A program made the translations under genes and the position numbers. A stretch of 45,468 nucleotides of DNA from Betaproteobacteria bacterium (GTDB lineage Bacteria; Pseudomonadota; Gammaproteobacteria; Burkholderiales; Burkholderiaceae_A), in NCBI GenBank assembly GCA_018969705.1, contig JAGWXV010000003.1:1-45468 (forward strand), given 5' to 3'. Within the stretch, counting starts at the first letter, position 1. Each line of letters starts with the position of its first letter. Below, one piece after another: positions 18,765-25,524 of this stretch. Under the pieces are notes generated by a model, which worked only from the letters and a program-made list of their open reading frames with translations, was not told the origin of the DNA and did no database searches.

Positions 18765-18826
18765 TTTGAAATTACACTCTGAGTTTTCGTGAATCTCGAT
18801 CTTACTTGAGCAAAGGAAGCTGCAGC

Positions 18827-19600
18827 ATGACCGCATCTGATCCATTATCAGGAAAGCCCGCGCCGGGCATCGCAATCGTCACCGGTGCTGGAAGCGGTAT
18901 TGGCCGCGCGAGTGCCCAGCGCCTCTTGGCGCTTGGCTGGCGGGTTGCGCTCTTTGGCCGGCGCGAGGCGCCACTGCGCGAAACGGCCAGCACATCAGAA
19001 GCCAATGCCCTCATCGTGACGGGTGATGTCTCGATTGAGGCCGATGTGGATCGGCTGGTTGCTGCTGTGGTGAACAAGTGGGGCCGAGTCGATGTGCTTT
19101 TTAATAACGCTGGAATTTTTCCACCAGGACAGCTGATTGATGAACTCTCAGTTCAGAGCTGGAAGGAATCCGTTGAGATTAATTTGACTGGCGCATTCCT
19201 GTGTGCCCGGGCTGCCTTTGCGCAGATGCGGCGTCAGTCGCCGCAGGGCGGCCGCATTATTAACAATGGTTCGATCTCCGCCCATGCGCCTCGTCCACAG
19301 TCGGTGGGCTACACCGCCACAAAGCACGCAATTACAGGGCTAACCAAGTCGTTATCCTTGGATGGCCGGCCATTTGATATTGCCTGCGGCCAGATTGATA
19401 TTGGCAATGCCGCCTCAGAGATGACGACCGGCTTTGGTGCCGGCGCTTTACAGGCCAACGGCAGCCGCATGGCGGAGCCGAGAATGGATATTGCAGATGT
19501 CGCGGATGCGGTGGCCTATATGGCGGGCCTGCCCTTATCGGCCAATGTACTCTTTATGACCGTCATGGCCACCAAGATGCCGTTTATTGGCCGGGGCTAA
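18827..19600 (+). CDS. Short-chain dehydrogenase/reductase
   Basis: Rossmann [16 protein letters not shown], and [13 protein letters not shown] with AAAGGAAG upstream (ORF track starts at TTG 18806). Confidence 0.9.
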
Positions 19601-19840
19601 TTAGCCTCTGGCCAAGGGCCTGTGCAACTGTTCGGCTCTGGCCAACCGCTGTGAGAATTCGCTGTAGATCATCGCGCTCGGTGGGCCTAGTGCGGGATGT
19701 AAGCCCAAAAGATGGGCGCAGCCCGAAATGATTTCGAGCTGATTCATCAATTGATGTATCAACTGCCGTGCTTGCTGTGCCTGAACCTCAGGGTCAGATT
19801 GGCTTGATGCAGATATCGGATGGCTGGAATCAGAGGACAT
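19601..19840 (-). CDS. Small stand-alone protein resembling a histidine kinase dimerization/phosphotransfer (DHp/HisKA) helix pair
   Basis: MSSDSSHPISASSQSDPEVQAQQARQLIHQLMNQLEIISGCAHLLGLHPALGPPSAMIYSEFSQRLARAEQLHRPLARG; H-box-like first helix and plausible second helix; no ATPase domain; AAGGAAGA upstream of ATG. Confidence 0.6.
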   Translation of the reverse strand: MSSDSSHPISASSQSDPEVQAQQARQLIHQLMNQLEIISGCAHLLGLHPALGPPSAMIYSEFSQRLARAEQLHRPLARG

Positions 19841-19876
19841 TGTGGTCTTCCTTGTGCAAATCAACGTGTCTTTAAT

Positions 19877-20296
19877 TTAAAGCACCTGCTGGTCGGTGCA
19901 AGTCAGAAGCGCCTCGGTCTCATGGGCCGCAGGCGGCCGCATCAGGGTGCAGAGCAGGGCCTGCCGATCCACAGGCTTTTCTAGATAATCAAAGGCTCCC
20001 TGTTCGATGGCCTGCATGGTGACCACTGGAGATGACTGGCCAGTGAGCACGATGACCTTGGCAAGACTATTTTTCGCCTGCACTGTTTTCAGAAATATCA
20101 GGCCCTCTTCATAGTCATCGGCCTTTGGCGGCAGGCCCAAATCCAGGATGACCACAGCGATTTCTGAATCCTCAAACAGCATCGCCAGGCCATCATGTCG
20201 ATTCGTGGCCTCGTCTGCAGAAAATCCAAGGGCCTCGACCTGGCGTCGAAGCAGCTGCCGAAGCTCCGGCTGATCCTCCACGATTAAGACACGCAT
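19877..20296 (-). CDS. Stand-alone response regulator receiver-domain protein (PrsR-like receiver)
   Basis: MRVLIVEDQPELRQLLRRQ, VVILDLGLPP, VIVLTGQSS, FDYLEKPVD; no output domain. Confidence 0.9.
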   Translation of the reverse strand: MRVLIVEDQPELRQLLRRQVEALGFSADEATNRHDGLAMLFEDSEIAVVILDLGLPPKADDYEEGLIFLKTVQAKNSLAKVIVLTGQSSPVVTMQAIEQGAFDYLEKPVDRQALLCTLMRPPAAHETEALLTCTDQQVL

Positions 20297-20430
20297 GCAA
20301 CACCCTAATTTATATATTAATACTATAGTTTTTTAGCAAATCTATTTTTTTGTGGCAAGGCTTTCGGCCTGATTGGCCTGGGGTTTTTGGAATCGGCGAC
20401 AATCCGAGTCTGATCGCCAGGAGGAATGCC

Positions 20431-21774
20431 GTGAATCTGTACGCAAAACTCAGACAGCGCCAGGCCCAAGGAAAGCCGATTCGGGTGGGGCTGATTGGTG
20501 CTGGAAAGTTTGGCTCTATGTATCTGGCCCAGGTGCCCAAGACGCCCGGCCTGCACTTGGTTGCGATCGCTGATTTATCGCCTGATCAGGCCAAAAAAAA
20601 TCTTCAGCGTGTGGGCTGGCCGCAGCCGCAATTTTCGGCAGCCTCCATTGATGCGGCCTTATCGGCGGGTAATACCCATGTGGGCGATGACTGGCAAGCC
20701 TTGGTCCGTCATCCTGGGGTGGATGTCGTTGTGGAGTGTACGGGCCATCCGATTGCCGCAGTTGATCACTGCCTATTCGCGTTTACGCATGGCAAGCATG
20801 TAGTCAATGTCACCGTTGAAGCGGATGCCTTCTGCGGCCCATTGCTTGCAAAACGTGCTGCCGAGCATGGCGTGGTCTATAGCCTTGCGTATGGCGATCA
20901 GCCTGCTTTGGTCTGTGATCTTGTGGACTGGGCTCGGGCGGCAGGATTTTCTGTGGTGAGTGCAGGCCGGGGCCACAAGTGGCTGCCGCACTTTGCGCAG
21001 TCCACTCCCGAGACCGTCTGGGGCCACTATGGGCTCACCGAAGAGCAGGCCCGAATTGGCGGACTCAATCCGAAAATGTTCAATTCGTTTCTTGATGGCT
21101 CAAAGCCAGCCATTGAGTGCACTGCGATTTGTAATGCCACCGGACTGGTAGCGCCGCCAGAAGGCCTGAGCTATCCGGCCGCATCTGTGGATGACATTCC
21201 GTTTGTCTGCCGGCCGATCGCGGAAGGCGGCGTGCTGCATCAAAAGGGCCAGGTCGAGGTTGTTTCTTCGCTAGAAAAAGATGGCCGGCAAGTCCCCTAT
21301 GACATTCGCTTCGGAGTCTTCGTCGTGTTTGAGGGCGAGACTGAATACATCCGGAATTGTTTTAAGGAATACATGGTGCGAACCGACCCGAGTGGCCGCT
21401 ATGCCTGTCTCTATAAGCGCTGGCACTTAATCGGCTTGGAGGTAGGCATCTCTGTCGCCTCGGTGGCCCTGCGTAGTGAGGCCACGGGCGCGGCAATCGG
21501 CATGAACGCCGATGTCATTGCGACCGCCAAGCGGCCGCTTCGCGCCGGCGAACTTTTGGATGGCGAGGGCGGCTACACCGTGCATGGAAAGCTTCTACCG
21601 GCTCAGAAGTCGCTGGCGATTGGCGGGCTGCCGTTAGGCCTTGCCCATGATGTCAAGCTCACCCGTGATGTGCCAGCGGACCAGTGCTTAACATGGGCGG
21701 ATGTGGCCATTGACACGACGCTAAATGCGTATCGGCTGCGCAAAGAGATGGAGTCAAGCTGCGCGCCCGTTTGA
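20431..21774 (+). CDS. NAD(P)-dependent oxidoreductase with C-terminal SAF domain (homoserine dehydrogenase-like fold)
   Basis: GLIGAGKFGSMYLAQV Rossmann motif; C-terminal AGELLDGEGGYTVHGKL...LPLGLAHDVKLTRDVPADQCLTWADV. GTG start at 20431 with AGGAGG at 20419-20424. Confidence 0.82.
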   Translation: MNLYAKLRQRQAQGKPIRVGLIGAGKFGSMYLAQVPKTPGLHLVAIADLSPDQAKKNLQRVGWPQPQFSAASIDAALSAGNTHVGDDWQALVRHPGVDVVVECTGHPIAAVDHCLFAFTHGKHVVNVTVEADAFCGPLLAKRAAEHGVVYSLAYGDQPALVCDLVDWARAAGFSVVSAGRGHKWLPHFAQSTPETVWGHYGLTEEQARIGGLNPKMFNSFLDGSKPAIECTAICNATGLVAPPEGLSYPAASVDDIPFVCRPIAEGGVLHQKGQVEVVSSLEKDGRQVPYDIRFGVFVVFEGETEYIRNCFKEYMVRTDPSGRYACLYKRWHLIGLEVGISVASVALRSEATGAAIGMNADVIATAKRPLRAGELLDGEGGYTVHGKLLPAQKSLAIGGLPLGLAHDVKLTRDVPADQCLTWADVAIDTTLNAYRLRKEMESSCAPV

Positions 21775-21935: not shown

Positions 21936-23300
21936 ATGTCAATTTTCTCGAATCCCTTTGATGCAAAGTCAAGTTTACGTTGCAGCTGCGGCCAACACGC
22001 ATCGCGGGCCGAGCACGAGGCACTTTCGGCGCACGCTGAGCAGCTTGCCGGCGAGCGCCTGTCTTCGCATGTGGTCGAGCAGGCGGTTGTGCGCGCACTC
22101 TTCCCCCAGGATTCGGTGCGCCGAAAATTTCTTCAGGCGGTGGGTTCACCCGTGGCCATGTCTGCGATTTCATCCATTTTCCCGATGGCCTTGGCCAAAG
22201 AGGCTTTTGCGCAGGCCGGTAGGCTTGAAAAGCCCAAGCTTAATGTCGGCTTCATTCCGATTACCTGTGCGACTCCGATCATCATGGCTGATCCCATGGG
22301 CTTTTATAAAAAGCAAGGTCTCGATGTCAATATCGTGAAGACTGCGGGATGGGCCGTGATTCGGGACAAGACCCTGAATAAGGAATACGACGCCGCCCAC
22401 ATGCTGTCACCGATGCCGCTTGCAATCAGTGTTGGCGCAGGCGCATCTCCGGTGCCTTACACCATGCCGGCTGTGGAAAACATCAATGGTCAGGCCATCA
22501 CCTTGGCCATGAAGCACAAAGATAAGCGCGACCCGAAGCAGTGGAAGGGTTTTCGATTTGCGGTTCCTTTCGACTACTCCATGCACAACTATCTGCTGCG
22601 CTACTACGTTGCAGAGGCTGGCCTAGATCCGGATAAAGATATCCAAATTCGCTCCGTGCCTCCTCCGGAGATGGTGGCCAACATGCGGGCGGACAACATT
22701 GATGGTTTCTTAGCGCCGGACCCCGTCAATCAGCGGGCCGTCTTCGATGGCGTGGGCTTTATTCATATGCTCTCAAAAGAGCTCTGGGAGGGCCACCCTT
22801 GCTGCGCCTTTGCGGCGAGCAAGGAGTTTGTGACAACCATGCCGAACACCTATGCAGCGCTGCTGCGGGCGATTATTGAGGCGACGGCCTATGCTCAAAA
22901 ACCTGAAAATCGAAAAGAGATTGCGGCTGCGATTGCGCCGCCAAATTATCTGAATCAGCCCCTAACGGTGGTGGAGCAGGTGCTGACTGGTACATTCGCC
23001 GATGGACTTGGCAATGTCCGCAAGGTGCCGGATCGCATTGGCTTTGATCCCTTCCCCTGGCAATCCTTTGCAGTCTGGATCCTGACCCAGATGAAGCGCT
23101 GGGGTCAGATTAAGGGCGATATCGATTACCAAAAAATTGCAAGCGAAGTCTTTCTCGCGACCGATGCGTCGCGCTTAATGACCCAGGCCGGTCTGACGCC
23201 GCCGAAGACCACGAGTAAATCCTTCTCGGTGATGGGTAAGGTCTTCGATCCAGCAAAGCCTGAGGAGTACTTGAACAGCTTTAAGATCAAGAGGATCTAA
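21936..23300 (+). CDS. CmpA/NrtA-family ABC transporter substrate-binding protein with Tat-like signal (cyanate/nitrate type)
   Basis: SVRRKFLQAVGSPVAMSAISSIF Tat-like motif; KLNVGFIPITCATPIIMADPMGFYKKQGLDVNIVKTAGWAVIRD; followed by permease, ATPase and cynS. Confidence 0.9.
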   Translation: MSIFSNPFDAKSSLRCSCGQHASRAEHEALSAHAEQLAGERLSSHVVEQAVVRALFPQDSVRRKFLQAVGSPVAMSAISSIFPMALAKEAFAQAGRLEKPKLNVGFIPITCATPIIMADPMGFYKKQGLDVNIVKTAGWAVIRDKTLNKEYDAAHMLSPMPLAISVGAGASPVPYTMPAVENINGQAITLAMKHKDKRDPKQWKGFRFAVPFDYSMHNYLLRYYVAEAGLDPDKDIQIRSVPPPEMVANMRADNIDGFLAPDPVNQRAVFDGVGFIHMLSKELWEGHPCCAFAASKEFVTTMPNTYAALLRAIIEATAYAQKPENRKEIAAAIAPPNYLNQPLTVVEQVLTGTFADGLGNVRKVPDRIGFDPFPWQSFAVWILTQMKRWGQIKGDIDYQKIASEVFLATDASRLMTQAGLTPPKTTSKSFSVMGKVFDPAKPEEYLNSFKIKRI

Positions 23301-23306
23301 GGGAAG

Positions 23307-24149
23307 ATGATGTCTCTGGAGCGGCTGCGACCGCTTGCTCTCTCACTGATCATTCTTGGGATGCTCTTTGGCATTTGGGCGCTGGCCACAATGGGAGGCA
23401 GCAAAGGCCAGGTCGTTGATGATGAGTATGCCAAGCTGGTCGGTGCGGCGGCTGCATCAGGCCAGAAGTCAGCGTTTCCAACGCCGGGCGATTTTCTTGA
23501 AAAGCTGGGCGGCCATCTTGCAGATCCGTTTTACGATCGTGGCACCAACGATAAGGGTATTGGCATTCAGTTGGCGTATTCGATCGCCCGCGTGCTCTCT
23601 GGGTTTTTTCTTGCGGCGGCCGTTGCGATTCCTTTGGGGTTCATGATCGGCATGTCGCGAACGGCGTTTGCGGCTCTGGATCCCTTCATCCAAGTGCTCA
23701 AGCCCATCTCGCCACTCGCTTGGATGCCGCTTGCGTTATTTACGCTTAAAGACTCAGGCGTATCGGCCATATTTGTCATCTTTATTTGTTCCATCTGGCC
23801 GATGTTGATCAATACAGCTTTTGGTGTCGCCTCAGTCCGCAAGGAATGGATGGATGTCGCCCGCACCCTTGAAGTGCGCCCGGTACGCAAGGCCCTGCGC
23901 GTGATCCTTCCTGCGGCAGCTCCCACCATCATGACCGGCATGCGTATCTCCATTGGGATCGCCTGGCTCGTGATTGTGGCCGCCGAGATGTTGGTGGGCG
24001 GCACGGGCATCGGCTATTTCGTGTGGAACGAGTGGAACAATCTCTCGATCAGTAACATCCTGACCGCGATTCTGCTGATTGGTGTGGTTGGAATGGTGCT
24101 GGATTTTGTTTTTGCCCGCCTGCAGCGGCTGGTTACCTACCGGGATTAG
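23307..24149 (+). CDS. ABC transporter permease (NrtB/SsuC type)
   Basis: PISPLAWMPLALFTLKDSGVSAIFVIF and VILPAAAPTIMTGMRISIGIAWLVIVAAEML, EAA-loop type permease. Confidence 0.92.
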   Translation: MMSLERLRPLALSLIILGMLFGIWALATMGGSKGQVVDDEYAKLVGAAAASGQKSAFPTPGDFLEKLGGHLADPFYDRGTNDKGIGIQLAYSIARVLSGFFLAAAVAIPLGFMIGMSRTAFAALDPFIQVLKPISPLAWMPLALFTLKDSGVSAIFVIFICSIWPMLINTAFGVASVRKEWMDVARTLEVRPVRKALRVILPAAAPTIMTGMRISIGIAWLVIVAAEMLVGGTGIGYFVWNEWNNLSISNILTAILLIGVVGMVLDFVFARLQRLVTYRD

Positions 24150-24159
24150 GGGCGGCACA

Positions 24160-25014
24160 ATGAGCTTTCTTCAAGTCCAGGGCCTCAAGAAAACATTTCC
24201 CGGTGTTGCCGGATCCGAAGATCTGATCGTTTTTGACAATATCAATTTCGAACTGCATCGAGGAGAGTTTGTCTGCATTATTGGCCACTCGGGCTGCGGA
24301 AAAACCACCATTCTCAATGTACTTGCAGGGCTCGAGCAGCCCTCTGGCGGCCATGTCTTTATGGATGGTCGAGAGGTCTCGGGCCCCAGCCTGGACCGCG
24401 GGGTCGTGTTTCAGTCCCATGCCCTGATGCCTTGGTTAAGTGTTCGGGAAAATATTGCGTTTGCTGTGAAGTCAAAGTGGCCGGACTGGTCAAAGGCGGA
24501 GATCGGTTCGCATGTTCAAAAGTTCATTGATCTCGTGCATCTTCAGGGTGCCGAAGACAAAAAGCCGGCGCAGCTCTCAGGGGGCATGAAGCAACGGGTA
24601 GGAATTGCTCGTGCGTTCGCAATTCAGCCCAAGATGCTGCTCTTGGACGAGCCTTTCGGCGCGCTGGATGCCCTAACACGCGGCAACATTCAGGATGAAC
24701 TTGTCGAGATCGTTCAGCAGACCCATCAGACGGTATTCATGATTACGCATGATGTTGATGAGGCAATTTTGTTGGCCGATAAGATTTTCCTGATGAGTAA
24801 TGGCCCCCAGGCAGTCATTGCGGAGATCGTGGAGAACACCATGCCAAAAAGCCGATCTCGATCCACGATGCACCATGATCCGCAGTTTTATTCCATTCGT
24901 AATCATCTGATTGATTTCTTGGTGAAGCGGGCAAAAGCCATCTCAAGTGGCCAGGAGATAAAGCCCCAGAGACCGGTGGTGGTCAGGCCCGGACTGCTGC
25001 CTAAAGCCGCTTAG
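24160..25014 (+). CDS. ABC transporter ATP-binding protein (NrtD/CynD type)
   Basis: Walker A GHSGCGKTT, signature LSGGMKQRVGIARA, Walker B LLLDEPFGALD. ATG at 24160; ORF track start at 24079 overlaps the permease. Confidence 0.94.
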   Translation: MSFLQVQGLKKTFPGVAGSEDLIVFDNINFELHRGEFVCIIGHSGCGKTTILNVLAGLEQPSGGHVFMDGREVSGPSLDRGVVFQSHALMPWLSVRENIAFAVKSKWPDWSKAEIGSHVQKFIDLVHLQGAEDKKPAQLSGGMKQRVGIARAFAIQPKMLLLDEPFGALDALTRGNIQDELVEIVQQTHQTVFMITHDVDEAILLADKIFLMSNGPQAVIAEIVENTMPKSRSRSTMHHDPQFYSIRNHLIDFLVKRAKAISSGQEIKPQRPVVVRPGLLPKAA

Positions 25015-25050
25015 GGCAGCCTACTTTTTTCGATAAAGGAGTGTTTTGTA

Positions 25051-25524
25051 ATGACAGTTGCTAAAAGCCCCGCCAAGCCCATGACACGTGAGGACGTCAC
25101 GGATCTGATTTATTCCGCAAAGGTTCAAAAAGGCATCAAGTGGGCCGATGTCGCAAAAAAATTGAAGCTCTCTAAAGAGTGGACAACAGCGGCTTGCCTT
25201 GGCCAGATGACACTAACTGCCGCCCAGGCTGAGACGATCGGCAAAATCTTTGGCCTACCGAAGGAGGCGATCAAGCTGTTACAGGTGGTGCCCTACAAAG
25301 GAAGCCTTCCGACCGCTGTGCCGACTGATCCGCTGATCTACCGCTGGTACGAGATCGTCAATGTCTACGGTACCACCATCAAAGAATTGATCCACGAGGA
25401 ATTTGGTGACGGCATCATGAGTGCGATTGACTTTTCCATGGATATCGTGCGCGAGCCGGATCCGAAAGGCGACCGCGTCAACGTGAAGCTCTCGGGTAAA
25501 TTCTTGCCGTATAAGACTTACTGA
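25051..25524 (+). CDS. cynS: Cyanate hydratase (cyanase)
   Basis: 157 aa; LIYRWYEIVNVYGTTIKELIHEEFGDGIMSAIDFSM contains the cyanase catalytic Arg/Glu/Ser set. Confidence 0.97.
   Translation: MTVAKSPAKPMTREDVTDLIYSAKVQKGIKWADVAKKLKLSKEWTTAACLGQMTLTAAQAETIGKIFGLPKEAIKLLQVVPYKGSLPTAVPTDPLIYRWYEIVNVYGTTIKELIHEEFGDGIMSAIDFSMDIVREPDPKGDRVNVKLSGKFLPYKTY

Follow-up and report, generated by a model that had tools for sequence, protein, structure and literature searches.

Probable remains of an archaic chaperone-usher pilus operon, and a DHp-only protein encoded by its intact relatives

Two adjacent ORFs on the minus strand of the window (the whole stretch of 45,468 nucleotides that was analyzed) almost certainly represent what is left, after decay, of an archaic chaperone-usher pilus operon, a judgement that covers both the anatomy of the locus and its decay. 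In relatives from the same genus the operon is intact, and its last gene encodes a protein of 71-85 amino acids (mini-DHp) that consists of a HisKA/DHp domain only; its most likely role is as a relay step in the control that turns the pili on or off. A decayed pilus operon in the window, together with a phosphotransferase relay through mini-DHp in the relatives, is the best overall explanation, and the case for that combination is evenly balanced.

The window locus and the intact operon

The locus was compared across the seven genomes of the genus (including the window's own, G000; mostly draft assemblies) and 19 other genomes of the family. The intact operon has the order response regulator (receiver plus Fis HTH), SCPU pilin, chaperone, usher and mini-DHp. 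In G006, the regulator, SCPU pilin, a small chaperone, a 735-aa usher and mini-DHp lie between the same SDR and Gfo/Idh-type genes that flank the locus in the window; the pilin and usher were identified by Pfam (SCPU, 7.3e-31; Usher, 2.1e-8) and the chaperone by position and size only, without a Pfam match. The gene order of G001 is the same as that of G006, and G003 has the regulator, usher and mini-DHp in the same order and with the same spacing. In these three complete loci the regulator opens the operon on a single contig; the contigs break in the other three. The usher is upstream of mini-DHp in six of six intact copies. The gap between usher and mini-DHp is short (38 bp in G006 and about 36 bp in the window), and co-transcription is therefore implied. 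Outside the genus, no relatives of the usher were found at E<=1e-30 in 200 genomes of the order, the sister genus having distant ones. A scan of genome contigs gave three loci only, all from MAGs of the same genus as the window. Two contigs of G004 (C51 and C105; loci L009 and L028) share a 644-base overlap inside the usher at 99.1% identity, which hints at strain variation in this gene.

Table 1. Features of the locus; positions are those of the window
Feature	Position	Strand	Remarks
SDR gene, conserved flank, convergent with mini-DHp	18806..19600	+	Conserved in relatives
Conserved second helix of window mini-DHp, other frame	19587..19682	-	1-bp deletion near 19682
mini-DHp ORF as read in window	19601..19840	-	79 aa, ATG start; phospho-His H29, Q30 = H+1, N33 = H+4
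In-frame part of window mini-DHp, residues 1-53 (N-terminal tail, H-box helix 1, turn)	19682..19840	-	Nucleotide alignment with G004 and G005
Fused receiver ORF	19877..20296	-	139 aa
Usher-derived tail, about 27 residues, LLCTLMRPPAAHETEALLTCTDQQVL, in-frame fusion to receiver	19877..19958	-	96% nucleotide identity to G004 usher 3' end
Deletion junction, short homology GCAGGC-x-CTGC-x-CT	19951..19967	.	Stretch common to G005 receiver and usher genes
Receiver part, residues 1-112, phospho-Asp D52	19959..20296	-	Pfam Response_reg 5.7e-20; remnant of ~205-aa receiver + Fis-HTH regulator
Gfo/Idh-type gene (NAD(P)-binding, by eye), conserved flank, divergent from regulator	20350..21774	+	Conserved in relatives

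As the first-pass annotation had noted, the 139-aa receiver ORF of the window adjoins the mini-DHp ORF upstream on the same strand, which is the minus strand (Table 1). It had been described as a stand-alone receiver without an output domain, a description ruled out by the deletion that joins the receiver to an usher tail: about residues 113-139 are the usher C-terminus, and the domains of full-length orthologues in the relatives show a regulator of about 205 residues that ends in a Fis HTH. The receiver part is 84-85% identical to its G004 and G005 orthologues; at the nucleotide level, identity is 93% to the G004 receiver as far as the junction and 96% to the G004 usher tail beyond it. Relative to three relatives, about 3.55 kb of DNA is absent from the window, i.e., the 3' end of the regulator, the pilin, the chaperone and most of the usher (the span between corresponding points is 3562 bp in G006, 3567 bp in G001 and 3542 bp in G003). 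Only the last ~27 usher residues remain of the archaic chaperone-usher set, and no usher was found elsewhere in the G000 assembly. The resemblance of the receiver to PrsR was also not borne out, as TIGR02915 scored 77 bits against a cut-off of 502.6, over the receiver only, and the intact orthologue has no sigma-54 AAA match.

The second lesion is a 1-bp deletion in mini-DHp itself, at about position 19682, where nucleotide alignment places GGGCCC-ACC in the window opposite GGGCCCTACC in the nearest relative, G004. In a whole-genome search, the match between the same-genus homologues and the window ORF splits into two frames exactly where helix 1 passes into the turn, and the window's own genome yields a second profile match (C27:19587-19697) that covers mini-DHp profile positions 35-71. 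Window positions 19601-19681 are thus an out-of-frame reading of the second-helix DNA. The second helix quoted initially, SEFSQRLARAEQLHRPLA, is out of frame, and the real conserved helix (TERDDLQKILTAVGQSRTLAQAL in the nearest relative) is in the other frame at 19587-19697. Searches of Pfam, NCBIfam and PDB sequences with the 79 aa alone gave no DHp match because the query is too short and frameshifted. As the frame is broken and the target genes are gone, the window copy of mini-DHp most likely does nothing useful. The refuting outcome named in the first-pass annotation, a frameshifted kinase remnant, did arise in another way: there is no frameshifted ATPase domain, and what is frameshifted is mini-DHp, within a decayed pilus operon.

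It is improbable that the deletion and frameshift arose as errors of assembly or consensus calling in a draft genome, with an intact operon in the real strain, even though the genome of the window is in 214 contigs and 79% complete, and the contigs of G004 and G005 also break inside the usher (the overlapping ends in G004 being 99.1% identical). Between about 12.6 and 21.8 kb, none of the surrounding genes is shortened relative to its G006 orthologue, and the two lesions are therefore not explained by poor assembly quality in general. Joins at ~12-16 bp of imperfect homology are unlikely for the usual assembly k-mer sizes, which argues against a false join; the assembly has no other usher copy, and two independent lesions in one locus fit decay. 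The original proposal, that the 79-aa protein and the 139-aa receiver form a working minimal two-gene phosphorelay, is very improbable: both ORFs are open, the receiver retains its phospho-Asp and core, and the 79-aa protein alone is still predicted to fold as a hairpin (pLDDT 77.5), but the receiver ends in usher sequence at the deletion junction, the frameshift removes the conserved second helix, the hairpin prediction has no evidential weight since the frameshifted tail also scores as helical, and synteny contradicts the pair, which is the product of a ~3.5-kb deletion and a frameshift in one genome and is shared by none of the six other genus members, the intact relatives having a five-gene pilus operon. 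The case is a warning that a small 'module' found in one draft genome may be no more than a deletion scar, which in this instance came to light only through synteny with relatives.

Further along the window, the Gfo/Idh-type gene is separated from a DMT-type permease gene by NrtA/B/C-like ABC transporter genes and a cyanase-like gene (positions 21936-25524; assignments by eye). In G006 the Gfo/Idh-type and permease genes are adjacent, without intervening transporter or cyanase-like genes, and this stretch therefore looks like an accessory cyanate/nitrate cassette.

Conservation and identity of mini-DHp

The mini-DHp of the intact relatives is a real gene. All seven genus genomes carry it and none of the 19 other family genomes does, and, among the matches listed from 399 Burkholderiales genomes, none outside the genus was in a short open frame. 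Across the six intact copies, the H, N(H+4), L, I, I, G, A and L positions are invariant, and the in-frame half of the window copy agrees; outside these sites the sequences are divergent (28-48% identity). The phospho-His, on the conservation of which the first-pass reading had been made to depend, is kept in all seven genus members and aligns with the phospho-His of kinases. Between G004 and G005, dN/dS over the core is 0.098 (8.5 non-synonymous and 19.5 synonymous differences), more distant pairs being saturated or less clear. In G006 (L011, 8920-8965), the 3' end of mini-DHp overlaps the convergent SDR gene. The conserved ..DQ/..GQ C-terminus of mini-DHp is read from the strand complementary to the codons for FIGRG, the conserved SDR end, and its conservation consequently says nothing about the mini-DHp protein.

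A profile built from five mini-DHp homologues matched full-length histidine kinases in 256 of the 399 Burkholderiales genomes (E<=0.05), with the register of the H-box checked in the best matches only. Alignment with hhalign to eight kinase DHp segments gave a probability of 97% (E 5.7e-11), the kind of profile-profile similarity to HisKA/DHp that the first-pass annotation had proposed to look for. Pfam HisKA (PF00512) matched the G001 copy at E=2.3e-4, the best score being 21.6 bits, which is below the curated 26.9. The Hpt model PF01627 had no match among the mini-DHps. The intact G004 protein was predicted by AlphaFold to be a helical hairpin (helices at residues 17-46 and 53-81; pLDDT 83, core >90); mini-DHp may dimerize in the manner of DHp domains. 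The top PDB match in Foldseek was the RetS-GacS complex 7n0e (GacS DHp), with the DHp domains of ERS1, ZraS and CpxA near the top, although no match was significant and other coiled helices scored similarly.

No HATPase_c domain was seen in or beside the 71-85-aa mini-DHps, between the usher and SDR genes, in the flanks of the intact copies, and no second, degenerate ATPase-like domain was found in the proteins themselves. A kinase remnant with its lost ATPase domain next door was ruled out by the lack of HATPase in these flanks. It is highly probable that mini-DHp, which lacks an ATPase domain, is a HisKA-type DHp protein. This much of the initial description has held: the window ORF carries LIHQLMNQLEIISGCAHLL, its H-box is real and matches kinases in register, and the profile matches support a DHp protein that is related to kinases and lacks a catalytic domain.

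In HisKA proteins, the acidic residue at H+1 is needed for kinase activity only, and the Asn/Thr at H+4 for phosphatase activity only; CrdS E372A/Q retains full phosphatase activity, N375 is essential for it, and the phospho-His only enhances it (PMC3510030). Among the seven mini-DHp copies, H+1 is Q, Q, Q, V, S, D and E, and is thus acidic in two of the seven (D in G001, E in G005), while H+4 is N in all seven. By comparison, H+1 was E/D in 15 of 15 readable kinases matched by the profile (Fisher p=8e-4 against the mini-DHps, for a profile-selected set). The earlier suggestion that phosphotransfer or phosphatase activity suits the protein better than kinase activity is in keeping with the non-acidic H+1 and the retained H+4 Asn. 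From sequence, the pattern fits a protein that would have been freed from kinase duty yet would still handle phosphate.

A possible relay and its alternatives

A sister genus has an orthologue of the regulator (47-53% identity), with pilin, chaperone and usher genes after it in several genomes. The system there differs in that a full MHYT-PAS-HisKA-HATPase kinase is divergent from the regulator in most copies and mini-DHp is absent. No full-length MHYT kinase was found in the seven genomes of the mini-DHp genus. Derivation of mini-DHp from the MHYT kinase is not supported, as the MHYT H-box (HELRTPL) is without the N-x-L-x-I-I pattern.

A hybrid kinase with the architecture dCache-HisKA-HATPase-receiver is present at full length in all seven genomes of the genus, which makes the remote kinase proposed initially plausible. 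In the 19 other family genomes it has no full-length form, only ~30% partial matches in two of them. The gene is not linked to the pilus operon and in G006 has no regulator beside it. It is the only orphan among the histidine kinases inspected in that genome; the others (PhoR-, NtrB-, NtrY- and FixL-like, and others, by eye) were rejected as the dedicated kinase because they adjoin a regulator or are of recognizable types. A TAG flagged as a premature stop in the G000 hybrid kinase was the normal gene end. Hybrid kinases commonly need a His phosphotransferase to reach a DNA-binding regulator, and no PF01627 Hpt domain was found in the seven genus genomes; mini-DHp is therefore the obvious candidate, judging from these parts lists.

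These observations suggest, tentatively and at somewhat less than even likelihood, a relay running from hybrid kinase to mini-DHp to regulator to pili. The orphan hybrid kinase would autophosphorylate and then pass the phosphate to its own receiver, from which the His of mini-DHp, acting as a minimal histidine phosphotransferase like ChpT or Spo0B, would take it and hand it to the Asp of the Fis-HTH regulator. This regulator would control the pilus operon, and the system would be reset by reverse flow or by hydrolysis aided by N(H+4). In the mini-DHp genus, this route would stand in for the ordinary MHYT sensor kinase found next to the same regulator in the sister genus. Against this, seven of seven versus none of 19 amounts to one clade, and common descent might by itself account for the co-occurrence of hybrid kinase and mini-DHp; the kinase gene lies away from the operon, and the kinase's receiver may serve regulation alone.

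The invariant N(H+4) would also fit a pure phosphatase. Accordingly, mini-DHp could be a dedicated phosphatase, a brake on the pilus regulator that provides negative feedback as the last gene of the operon, with phosphate supplied by another kinase or by a small-molecule donor; this main rival to the relay is rather unlikely. The H+4 Asn is invariant in all seven copies while H+1 drifts, just as in CrdS the H+1 acid is dispensable and N375 essential for the phosphatase (PMC3510030), and the implied co-transcription with the usher suits feedback. However, the phospho-His is invariant too, although it is only phosphatase-enhancing in that study. The ATPase domain and linker are absent from mini-DHp, and the orphan hybrid kinase ends in a receiver with no Hpt found in seven genomes to serve it. 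Phosphatase activity of kinases often depends on the ATPase domain and linker.

There is a small chance that mini-DHp is instead a competitive decoy or heterodimer partner that dimerizes with the DHp of a complete kinase, or sits on a receiver without carrying phosphate, tuning specificity or signal strength. Its top fold match, 7n0e, is a kinase region bound to the DHp of another kinase, but an invariant His and Asn in an otherwise divergent sequence point to chemistry and not to packing alone.

If the phosphotransferase relay is correct, a phosphorelay may have arisen in one Burkholderiales genus from an ordinary two-component switch of the pili, through loss of the adjacent kinase and gain of a ~60-residue DHp hairpin fed by an orphan hybrid kinase, a reading that is possible but doubtful. 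Comparison of the two sister genera offers a natural experiment in which one regulator is seen before and after rewiring. A protein consisting of a DHp domain alone, maintained by purifying selection with the H+4 Asn retained and H+1 no longer constrained to be acidic, would show the minimum portion of a kinase that is needed. To our knowledge, a hairpin of ~60 residues would be the smallest DHp-type phosphotransferase.

Comparison with known systems

Phosphotransferases of the ChpT/Spo0B type resemble kinases but retain a dead ATPase-like domain. In the CckA-ChpT-CtrA pathway of Caulobacter and Brucella, the DHp hairpin of ChpT shuttles phosphate between the receiver of a hybrid kinase and a regulator that binds DNA (PMC3433190, PMC9981736). 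Like ChpT, mini-DHp is a kinase-derived DHp hairpin, and the same role is proposed for it. ChpT differs in retaining the degenerate ATPase-like domain and in being an essential cell-cycle factor, whereas mini-DHp is a single domain of ~71-85 aa in a pilus operon. No published DHp-only protein of this kind was found in a limited search of the open-access literature.

Spo0B, of Bacillus sporulation, is likewise a DHp-type phosphotransferase without kinase activity. It carries a C-terminal degenerate CA-like domain, and the Bacillus pathway has the stand-alone receiver Spo0F upstream. The similarity of mini-DHp to the SPOB_a model reached only E=0.094. The Spo0B pathway exists in relay and direct-kinase forms in different lineages (PMC6136694), and the two genera compared here may show the same two forms. 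Hpt proteins (PF01627, e.g., LuxU and Ypd1) have the role expected of mini-DHp, holding phosphate on a His between two receivers, but are of another family and fold arrangement.

In Burkholderia thailandensis, the archaic chaperone-usher operon csuFABCDE-bfmSR is run by a linked phosphorelay-type two-component system (PMC12124856), and the operon described here would be similar in being linked to a phosphorelay-type system of its own. BfmS is a full hybrid with its own HPt, and bfmSR is at the 3' end of that operon, whereas here the regulator comes first, mini-DHp comes last and the candidate kinase is encoded elsewhere.

In three genomes of the sister genus (G009, G025 and G024; loci L098, L100 and L101), the MHYT kinase and regulator are kept, no pilus genes follow the regulator, and a phasin-like gene (by eye) is next to it instead; the pilus genes seem to have been lost repeatedly. 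In the same genus, fragments of a regulator and an MHYT kinase in G021 (L102, 6262-6992) represent a second, decaying copy.
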